Assembly: GCF_029962835.1 (NCBI RefSeq)
Contig: NC_080577.1
Coordinates: 806,001 to 870,000 of the forward strand
From: Magnolia sinica
Taxonomy: Eukaryota; Streptophyta; Magnoliopsida; Magnoliales; Magnoliaceae
DNA: 64,000 nt
Reading direction: 5' to 3'
The translations under genes and the position numbers were made by a program. The notes below the pieces were generated by a model. The model made no database searches. It was not told the origin of the DNA and saw only the letters and a list, made by a program, of their open reading frames with translations. Within the stretch, counting starts at the first letter, position 1, and each line of letters starts with the position of its first letter. Positions 24,335 through 30,900 of the stretch are shown in pieces.

Positions 24335-24442
24335 GGAATGTAAATTGTATATAAGTAGGTAGGTTGTTTATAAAATTCTCCTTAAAAAACGCCCTCCTCT
24401 CTTCTTTCAAAACAACGACATCGGATCCGAGAGAAAGAGGAA
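24335..24442 (+). promoter_or_regulatory. SEC5: SEC5 core promoter and 5' leader, copy 1
   Basis: TATA box TTTATAAAA at 24367-24375, about 70 bp before ATG 24443. The leader is CT-rich (CCCTCCTCTCTTCTTTC), as in many plant leaders. The ATG context GAGGAAATGTC is acceptable. The TATA box and leader are repeated at 27448-27523. The TSS is inferred, near 24400. Confidence 0.65.
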
Positions 24443-24906
24443 ATGTCGAGCGATAGTGAGGATGACGAGCTGTTGCAGAGGGCTCTGCGAGAGCAAGACC
24501 AAATTGCTGCGAAGCCACCACCTCCCCCCTTTCTCAACGACAGTAGGAAGAACAAGAAGCCTTCCCGCGGTGGGGCCGACGACGACGACGATTCTGATTT
24601 GGAGATTCTCAGCATCTCATCTGGTGACGAGGATCAGTCTTCCAAGGACAATGCAGCCAGGAACAATCGCGGTCGTGGGCCCGCCTCAAGGAAAGGTGGA
24701 GGTGGAGAGAGGGACGCTGATCGTGGTGCGACTGACGATGAGCCCAGTTGTTGGAAGCGGGTCGATGAGACTGAGGTATGCGCTTCTTATGAACGAAATT
24801 CAGCTGTCTGTTCTGTTTCATGTGCCTGGATGAAGATCAAGATGGTCTATTCGTCAGGTGGGCCTCATTTGCTGATCAAATGTAGAACGTTTCTTTGTTA
24901 CACCCA
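24348..24906 (+). repeat. SEC5 first-exon duplication, upstream copy
   Basis: This 559-bp block (TATA box, leader, exon 1, start of intron 1) is repeated at 27428-27987. Homology starts at TATATAA and ends at TTACACCCA. Its right edge coincides with the CAGTGTTCGAA end of a hAT-like element at 24905. Confidence 0.95.
24443..24775 (+). CDS. SEC5: SEC5 exon 1, upstream copy
   Basis: 111 codons, phase 0, from ATG to GAG before the donor GTATGC. It encodes an acidic start ([15 protein letters not shown]), a proline run, an Asp-rich stretch leading to [12 protein letters not shown], and CWKRVDETE, which joins exon 2 ([10 protein letters not shown]) in the way plant SEC5 proteins do. It differs from the downstream copy at 11 of 333 bases and 8 residues. 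At positions where I recall plant SEC5 being conserved ([17 protein letters not shown]) this copy has the expected residue, so it is the better candidate for the working exon. Using it means splicing over 5.3 kb, skipping copy 2. Confidence 0.88.
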
Positions 24907-27900: not shown

Positions 27901-30900
27901 ATGTGCCTGGATGAAGATCAAGATGGTCTATTTGTCAAGTGGGCCTCATTTGCTGATTGAATGTAGAACGTTTCTTTGTTACACCCACATATTTCTTTTT
28001 CCTCATATGCGTGCTGTCCGCCTGATTATTGCACCTGGCCGCATTCTTTGTGGGCCCCACCTAATGAATGGCCTTTGATCTCATGCATGCTGTCAGGTTT
28101 GCTGCTAATCACATATTCAGTCTCTCGTTGCCTTAATTGCCTTGTCTCTCCTCTTCTCTTTTGACTCTCTCTGTCTCTGTTTAAGTGTAGAAAATCATGA
28201 TGCAGTTATCAAAGAGGAATGCTATTTCCGGATTCTTCATCCTCACACGCTATATGTTTGCATTTGGCACATGTGTGCATGATCAAGGACATTCATGGGG
28301 TTTCCATGATGGTGAAGGTTCTGTACCCCCACAAATCTGGCTGTTCCATTGGTCAGATGGGCTAGACATGAATGGAGAAATGGACGGTTTGAAAATGATA
28401 ACCATCTACGTTCAACATGACTATGTTGCTCACCTGATGAATGGGGTTGTGGTTGGCACTTGAAGATTGGACATCTGGAATTAGCTTTCTGATGTACCAT
28501 GGCTCCGGGCCTTTACGGTGATCAGGACTGTTTGTCTTGTGGGCCTCATTGTCGATGTTGCCGATGTAGGGTTATCCTAGTTGTTTGATTGTTCATCTGC
28601 CGAAGTATGGTTAGAAATATGGTAAGATGTCCTTATGCAATGGCCATAAATTAAGATGTCTAAAATTGCTGATGAGGAGATCTTTGGTCCATTCTGTTCC
28701 TTTGTTGGGGCCTGCTGATGAATGGTTTGGATTACACTTAGGTGGGCCGCACTTTTAAGAAATCTCTCTCCAAGATTCAAGATATCATTATGTACTGGCC
28801 ATACTACTGTTAATTTTTTTTCCTTCCTTTTATTATAAGTTAAAAAATCTTTAAAAAAAAAAGGAGAAGAAGAAAAAAGAGTCATCAACTCATCATTGCC
28901 TTGTCCAAGCTATTTGGGGTTGGCTGTATGCATTTTTCCAGGCAAATGTTCGATGACTGGCAGCCCAACTGACACCAAGTCTCCCTTAATTGCTTGGGGT
29001 CAGCTGTACTGTTGCTACAAGGCAGATTTTCATGGCTAGAACAACCAAATACCTCAACTAGTATCTTAAGCATATTTTGTTTCCCAGAGGAAATAGTGGC
29101 AATGAAAGAATCAAATTTTGAGAACATCACCTACACTTGTGCACCGTATCCATGAACCATCGCATGGAAGTCAATTTCATTTCCCAACTCGGCACGCCCA
29201 AATGACTAAACTGAAAAATGGGAGCTCCATTTGTAGCCTTGGCTTCTCTTGAACCATAATGAGCAAAGACCTGTTCTTTTTTTTTTTTTTTGTTTTATAA
29301 ATTGAAAAAGATCAACATATAACATGAATAGGAAACCCCATCTCTGTTGAGCCTAGAATAAAAATAATTGGCCTTTCTAGGAATGAGGTTAAAAGAAGCT
29401 TATAATGGAGAAGTTAGCTCACCAATCTCATTAACCATAAAGGACAGTTACCATGACTCCTTATTTTTCTGGGAAGACCAAGAGAACACTCCGTGAGTCT
29501 CCCTCTACTGTAGAAGGATCGTTGAATAAGTTTAACCTGATAAGCACAACTGACTGTTTTTACATGCAATTGGCAAAGACAACTAGTATGCACAACAAAC
29601 ACTCCATGGATGTTTGTTATGAGCAGTTACTGACAATAAGAATGTGCACTATGTTGTAGCCCACGTGAGGCCACTTGTAATGCCACAAAAGTGCCCAATC
29701 CATGCAGGGTATGCACATAAGGTAGGTAGATAGTGAAAGAAGAGAATAAGATATTCACCATTTGCATGATAGAAATTCTCTCTATAAACTAACTCGGAAG
29801 TTTTTTACTCAATAGTCAAACAGCCATTTGGCACCCGCTAAATATCTTTAGATGGCCAAATGACAACCATTGTTTCTCAATCTTTACACCTCAGATTCTA
29901 TTTTGCATAACCTCTTGCCCAATAACGAGTGACACTGTTTCTCTTCTATTTTAGACATAACAATTGATCCTCTCTCTTGCTTGAAAGTTCTTTAAACATT
30001 AACCTCTTTTTTTGACTTATTTAAGTAGATAGTTACACTTTTATGATTTTATCTTGATTTATTGTTGATATTGTGAAAGTTCAGTTAATTATGTTTTCGT
30101 TAACAGCTTGGTCGCAGGGTACGTGAAATGCGAGAGACAAGAGTAGCACCAGTTGTCCTAAACTCTGACAAGAAGGGACCGCAGGGAAAAAAGGGGCTTT
30201 CCAACTTACAATCATTACCTCGAGGCATGGAATTCGTTGATCCACTAGGATTAGGGTACACTTCTCTATTATGGCTAATGTGTTCCCTATGCTTTTGCAT
30301 GCATGTTGATGGTTAATGGTTTTCATGGTTAATGGTTTTCGTGATCACTTCCTATTACATTTTTATACAAAACTATTGGTGACATCTTTTAAATTTAGAG
30401 TCACTTGCATTTTTTTGCTTTGTGATGGTGACAATGTATATCATTTTCGATTTTCATGTTTTCTTCTTTTCTTCTTTGTTTTTCCTTTTTGTTGTTTGTT
30501 CAATCAGATGTCAGAAAGTTATATTACATGTAAGGTATAAAAAAACTTATAATGTGTAGATGTAGATTCTTGAGTAATTCGAGCATAAGACTTGAGTTTG
30601 TAGTTTGCTAGATTTTGACTTCTACATTATTTTCGTAATAGATTGGTGTCTTGTTAATTCTCTGCTTCTCATAGATGGGTCCTTTTGTATGTCTTTGAAC
30701 AGAAGCATTTTTCTGACCATGAAGTACATCTTCGAAGAGTTTTTCCTTTTTTTTTTAAAAAAAAAAATTATAAATTTTAAAGTGTTTGTATGTTTTCAAA
30801 CTTCATGCAATTGCTAAGGTTTGGATGCTTCATTTTATCCATCTAGGGCTTGTTTGGGAGCCTTAAAAGGCATTTTTGAAGAATCCATTTTCCATGAAAA

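Follow-up and report, generated by a model that had tools for sequence, protein, structure and literature searches.

A hAT-like element between two copies of the SEC5 first exon in Magnolia sinica: a candidate one-sided insertion with a long target duplication

The SEC5 locus and its two first exons

The window analysed here is a stretch of 64,000 nucleotides from the Magnolia sinica genome (1.84 Gb, 127 contigs), corresponding to C5:806001-870000. It contains a gene that runs rightward from a start at 24443, and that was labelled SEC5 because its downstream exons match the Sec5 domain. The Pfam Sec5 family (PF15469) was matched above the curated cut-off at 40776-40970 (1.4e-16) and 42698-42865 (5e-15), and a further match at 43188-43319 (4e-4) was under that cut-off. 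The remaining six of the nine stretches scanned with Pfam, exon 1 among them, gave no Sec5 match, and a literature search for a plant SEC5 N-terminal motif found none. Elsewhere in the window, ORFs at 1685-6378 resemble pieces of Copia-type retrotransposons (motifs, by eye), and minus-strand ORFs at 48693-50765 and 56054-56407 resemble LINE reverse-transcriptase fragments (by eye).

The beginning of the gene is present twice, as an earlier note on this DNA had claimed for a 559-bp block with TATA box, leader, exon 1 and donor site. The direct repeat of 557-559 bp aligns 24348-24906 (copy 1, A1) with 27428-27987 (copy 2, A2), both on the plus strand, and each copy comprises the TATA box (TATATAAG), the leader, exon 1, the donor and ~130 bp of intron 1. 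Copy 1 is taken as 24348-24904, ahead of the element E that separates the copies, and copy 2 is contiguous with the remainder of intron 1. The alignment of A1 and A2 has 560 columns with 19 differences (17 transitions, one transversion and one indel), corresponding to a divergence of 3.3% (K2P 0.034 over 553 columns). A BLAST search of the window with the block gave matches at the A1 and A2 positions only, and a whole-genome search, in which very common words were skipped by the tool, gave three full copies (A1, A2 and one on C2) and a 38-bp match on C14.

The coding parts of exon 1 (24443-24775 in copy 1 and 27524-27856 in copy 2, plus strand) are both open over 111 aa and end at the same donor, GTATGC. 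A predicted exon 2 at 30107-30254 (plus strand), of which only the start was placed, follows the acceptor TTAACAG and is in phase 0 with exon 1. The intron from copy 1 to exon 2 is 5.3 kb long (24776-30106) and spans E and copy 2, and that from copy 2, whose TATA box lies directly after E, is 2.25 kb long. The two copies are likely to be alternative first exons, both predicted to splice to the exon at 30107. The upstream region is the native one for copy 1 and element E for copy 2. The native upstream region (23840-24347, plus strand) is common to a paralogue on C2. It holds a perfect 68-bp tandem duplication (24199-24335) just upstream of A1, which is probably locus-specific and recent, because the 68-bp unit is single in the C2 paralogue.

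The third full copy of the block, on C2 (112404549-112405106, minus strand), lies in a locus (C2 ~112.37-112.41 Mb, minus strand) that is collinear with 23840-64000 of the window at 94-97% identity. The collinearity breaks at E, at the second block and at a ~0.2-kb gap near 59.8 kb. In this paralogue exon 1 is single, E is missing and the target site is uninterrupted, with upstream region, block and intron contiguous: its upstream region continues into TATATAAGGAGG..., and GTTACACC is directly joined to CACATATTTC. The uninterrupted GTTACACC-CACAT is also seen in a partial copy of intron 1 on C14 (L006, C14:29455000-29463000), which is 91% identical and begins 38 bp before the block end; elsewhere L006 has parts similar to 12.9-18.3 kb of the window. 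The single exon 1 and the empty site on C2 indicate that the event is specific to the C5 locus, and they supply, within the same genome, the relative without the element that the earlier note had named as support for an event at this locus. At SEC5, E lies between direct copies of a target of which this empty site has one, which places the arrangement among insertions with a long target duplication.

In the C2 stretch that was fetched, homology above 88% ends at 23840, ~0.5 kb upstream of the block. The best other match of 23354-23840 is C5:110059991-110060479 (94%, 487 bp), near the contig's other end, and position 23840 may for this reason be a rearrangement breakpoint.

With the three copies compared, amino-acid and silent changes per branch are 6:0 for A2, 2:3 for A1 and 4:2 for C2 (Fisher p = 0.06 for A2 versus A1). 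Six derived amino-acid changes with none silent are suggestive only of relaxed constraint on copy 2. From these branch counts, copy 1, beside the native promoter, tentatively looks the better kept, though it is farther from the gene body.

Element E, its family and its trimmed right end

Element E is a hAT-like non-autonomous element of 2523 bp (24905-27427, plus strand). Its left terminus, CAGTGTTCGAAATATCG, is intact and starts at 24905, directly after GTTACACC, the last 8 bp of A1 and the insertion site. Because the CA at 24905-24906 is common to the start of E and the uninterrupted copy, this left boundary carries a 2-nt ambiguity. The right end reads ...CGATATTTCGAAC, and copy 2 starts at the next base, 27428, in agreement with the breakpoints that had been placed at the left terminus (24905) and after the right terminus (27427). 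Terminal inverted repeats are supported by the score of the left 60 nt of E against the reverse-complemented right end (35, compared with a mean of 15 and a maximum of 30 in 500 shuffles); a wider end-to-end comparison aligned an interior stretch in place of the termini. The hAT label rests on the termini and the TSD length, and Pfam gave no match for the two parts of E submitted, one 117-aa ORF and one 31-aa stretch.

E contains a (TA)46 tract (27033-27125, plus strand), and a scan for nested elements with TSDs inside it found none. GTTACACC has a further occurrence within E, at 27186, as part of a 10-bp string shared with the element's left flank (TTGTTACACC, 27184-27193). Matches to E of that length were reached by random 20-mers of the window in 5.4% of 1878 trials, and this recurrence was treated as chance.

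E belongs to a high-copy family of ~2.5-kb hAT-like non-autonomous elements with full-length relatives elsewhere in the genome. A genome search with the left 376 bp of E yielded 4,897 first-look candidates. Scores were computed for 40 of them, whose identities were 91-98%, E itself aside. Sixteen relatives were examined: the eight best-scoring after E, fetched whole, and eight chosen from the remaining scored list, with the right-end stretch as the only further sequence retrieved for each; being best-scoring and hand-chosen, this sample is not random. The right terminus was readable in all eight best-scoring and in six of the eight chosen relatives (the right ends of L042, L021 and L025 were placed by eye). 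In every one of these 14 readable relatives, whose termini are of the type CAGTGTTCGAA...GAACACTG, four further terminal bases (ACTG in 11; ATTG, GCTG and ACTA in one each) and an 8-bp TSD (10 exact, 4 with one mismatch) were observed.

The right terminus of E lacks the last 4 nt (ACTG) and the 8-bp TSD, and the comparison with the 14 relatives therefore indicates that E misses exactly what its family normally carries. The loss of the TSD had been noted before; the missing bases had been given as CACTG, which is to be corrected to ACTG, the preceding C being kept. A simple canonical insertion, against which the earlier note had argued, is excluded at the right end by the absence of both ACTG and TSD.

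The flanks of 15 of the 16 relatives (L042 left out) had no direct repeat abutting both ends of the element, with 11 clean negatives, the right boundary having been misplaced or not found in four of the 15. The flanks of L040 shared a 54-bp match of 83% away from the ends, and those of L043 a dinucleotide-like tract of ~50 bp. The identical test at SEC5 recovers a 558-bp repeat.

Among the 40 of 4,897 candidates that were scored, the best-scoring relative of E lies on C5 itself (~932940-935400, opposite strand), ~100 kb away, and is 98% identical over the left 376 bp. This distance to the best of the scored relatives would fit a local hop.

Two smaller elements in the window have similar ends and perfect 8-bp TSDs (41043-41905, TSD ATTGTATC; 36751-37486, TSD ATTGTACA). 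Both lie in stretches that are collinear with C2 and free of gaps, and for that reason they probably predate the locus split. Scores above all 300 shuffles were obtained for the left end of E with the left end of 36751-37486 (149 vs 42) and with the inverted right end of 41043-41905 (68 vs 37), and for the right end of E with the inverted left end of 41043-41905 (51 vs 41). Shuffle-level scores were obtained for the right end of E with the right end of 36751-37486 (40, maximum 40) and for E with 41043-41905 in the same direction (34 vs 36 and 32 vs 40). The termini of E were better defined by the full-length relatives in the genome than by these elements.

Junctions, age and origin of the duplication

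The left junction is of the kind produced by a normal insertion. At the right junction, 4 nt of E are lost, no base is shared before the junction, and one A is added 5 nt into copy 2. This extra A at 27433 is found neither in A1 nor in C2, and with C2 as outgroup it is derived on the A2 branch. The 11 bp over the right junction (6 nt of E and 5 nt of the block), TCGAACTATAT, occur once more in E, at 27279-27289 on the plus strand, in the same orientation as at the junction. A match of this length was obtained in 0.19% of 18,860 trials with a random partner, in 3 of 287 with a random E end, and in 0.35% of 18,824 trials with both random. Since the match was found post hoc, it gives moderate support to TCGAACTATAT as a candidate template for filler, in a templated joining that would be of polymerase-theta type. 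With trimming, an added base and a recurring 11-bp string, the right junction looks like a product of end joining.

Directly right of E, GTTACACC was not found. In copy 2 it is present once, as in C2, and without a footprint, so the site there was probably never occupied. The sole indel and the sole transversion between the copies are each no more than 10 bp away from the right junction (1 in 171), but this clustering was withdrawn as an argument once C2 served as outgroup, since C2 puts the transversion on the A1 branch and only the inserted A on the A2 branch.

An assembly artefact, in which E-bearing and empty haplotypes were joined in series, would give an identical order of parts. The supposed join has zero overlap (0 nt shared before the junction), however, and a loss of 4 nt with a gain of 1 nt is not the product of an assembler; the 3.3% between the copies, moreover, is about equal to the divergence of the C2 and C5 paralogues. 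We regard such an artefact as highly improbable.

The divergence is 0.034 between the copies, 0.038 between E and its best-scoring relative (40 of 4,897 scored), and, between C2 and C5, 0.046 upstream, 0.032 for intron 1 and 0.025 over 4 kb of mostly intronic sequence. These values suggest rough agreement among the ages of the duplication, of E and of the locus split, with the caveat that mutation rates of the element and the gene may differ. The distances among copy 1, copy 2 and C2 are star-like (18, 17 and 17 substitutions), with nine derived changes in A1, nine and the insertion in A2, and eight unique to C2 (from 11 columns, of which three at alignment edges were dropped). The duplication would therefore be about as old as the C2/C5 split, with a large error.

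We propose, giving it about an even chance, that the locus arose by a one-sided hAT insertion with a 557-bp target duplication, finished by error-prone repair. The non-autonomous hAT-like element would have inserted one-sidedly into SEC5 intron 1, its left end joining cleanly after GTTACACC. At the right end, the usual joining 8 bp away would have failed and 4 nt would have been lost; error-prone end joining, probably of a polymerase-theta type with ~5 nt copied from within E, would then have linked this end to the TATA box that lies 557 bp upstream. The second block may have been supplied by a sister chromatid or the homologue, or else by the opposite strand of a staggered break, and the product would be an insertion between two copies of a 557-bp target that holds core promoter, exon 1 and donor. 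In normal hAT transposition, the transposase joins the two ends at sites 8 bp apart. A 557-bp stagger does not come from a transposase, and either a second break or a switch of template would therefore be needed.

What we infer in this scheme is the single event, the source molecule of the second copy and the acting polymerase. The earlier note had taken the fall of both breakpoints on element ends as a special argument; we do not retain it, because an arrangement of block, E and block is by definition an insertion with a long target duplication, and the coincidence follows from it. The transposon-linked repair that the note had also suggested fits the data, as the element is involved, its right end is trimmed and the junction is repair-like. 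A single event would be the most economical reading, with multi-step histories as its alternatives. Against it, no direct trace shows insertion and duplication to have been one event, and close dates cannot separate steps in quick succession.

In one such history, which we consider unlikely, E inserted canonically into one allele or chromatid, with an 8-bp TSD. An illegitimate unequal exchange came later: E was broken at its right end and linked there to the promoter on a homologue or sister that lacked E, which gave A-E-A-B. The final structure would be identical, the left end of E and its flank resemble a normal insertion, and transposase-cut hAT ends can yield rearrangements, according to the available text of PMC3744419 and PMC4270019. 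This history requires an unoccupied partner and a second event, however, and the first TSD has left no trace.

In another, somewhat more doubtful history, the duplication came first: a longer tandem duplication was followed by insertion of E into copy 1 and then by a deletion from the right end of E to the copy 2 promoter, which removed the TSD, the last 4 nt and the remainder. Here just one deletion endpoint must fall at an element end, and rice insertions of 10-1000 bp, including tandem duplications, are ascribed to break repair in the available text of PMC7407515. Three events are needed, however, and C2 has no older tandem copy, although an origin on C5 only is possible.

If the one-sided insertion proposed above is true, a transposon has, by a giant target duplication, given the gene a ready-made alternative first exon in a single step. 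Such an exon can arise at once in this way because the duplicated piece holds the core promoter and the first exon. As a tentative generalisation, half-finished hAT insertions, with one end joined by transposase and the other, hundreds of bp off, by polymerase-theta repair, may naturally duplicate promoters and first exons. With its empty-site paralogue and thousands of candidate siblings, the locus offers a clean natural case for how cut-and-paste transposons duplicate their surroundings.

Comparison with known duplications at hAT elements

In the titles and abstract openings searched, which covered few subscription journals, no closer precedent for hAT duplications or for one-ended or long-TSD insertions was found than PMC3744419 and PMC4270019; for background, PMC2686159 and PMC3260210 cover end joining in maize and the termini of Ac/Ds. 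The available text of PMC3744419 describes nine new Ac duplications in maize, together with three natural hAT cases. The reversed-ends signature given there is a pair of elements, each of which starts a repeat; one element carries the full TSD and the other has one side of it.

At SEC5, E is alone, and neither an 8-bp TSD on one element nor one side of it on another is present. An alternative hAT transposition (reversed-ends or sister-chromatid), as for maize Ac/Ds and as the earlier note had offered as one option, is on this basis very unlikely. It would place an element at the junction of a direct duplication, as observed, and the best-scoring of the 40 scored relatives among 4,897 lies ~100 kb off on C5 in the opposite orientation; the natural maize cases, of 116-1262 bp, include one with a 12-bp TIR deletion (PMC3744419, available text). 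However, only a single element is present, and the outer boundaries have no second element, TSD or footprint within ~350 bp, the end of copy 2 included. A search for a second terminus outside the repeats (24000-24360 and 27970-28300) found none, the best score being 10 of 17. In addition, the right end of E is trimmed, whereas strand transfer leaves the end intact.

The SEC5 locus resembles the maize B73 cases dhAT-Zm1, -Zm13 and -Zm24, in which a hAT element lies at the junction of a short direct duplication, with repeats of 116-1262 bp that are 93-99% identical. An element end that forms the repeat boundary and a TSD missing on one side are common to these cases and SEC5. In maize each case has two elements, both of which start a repeat, and in two of the three the first element has its full TSD, whereas SEC5 has a single element that lacks a TSD, is trimmed by 4 nt and ends in a repair-like junction (all maize features from the available text of PMC3744419).

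In the Ac/fAc composite insertions, which come from transposition-coupled re-replication, transposon ends and end joining give duplicated flanks, as at SEC5. Unlike SEC5, these composites have termini of Ac as well as of fAc, together with 8-bp TSDs and re-replicated flank that runs to kilobases (PMC4270019 and PMC9910405, available text). In the rice tandem duplications of Vaughn and Bennetzen, as cited in PMC7407515 and PMC8355091, a target segment is likewise doubled by fill-in and end joining. No transposon lies between the copies of such staggered-break duplications, in contrast to SEC5 (PMC7407515 and PMC8355091, available text), and the overhangs of the breaks tested in the available text of PMC8355091 are ~43 bp, far below the 557 bp at SEC5. 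Overall, the SEC5 case combines a hAT end with break repair, and it is aberrant-hAT-like and outside the reversed-ends class on the features tested.
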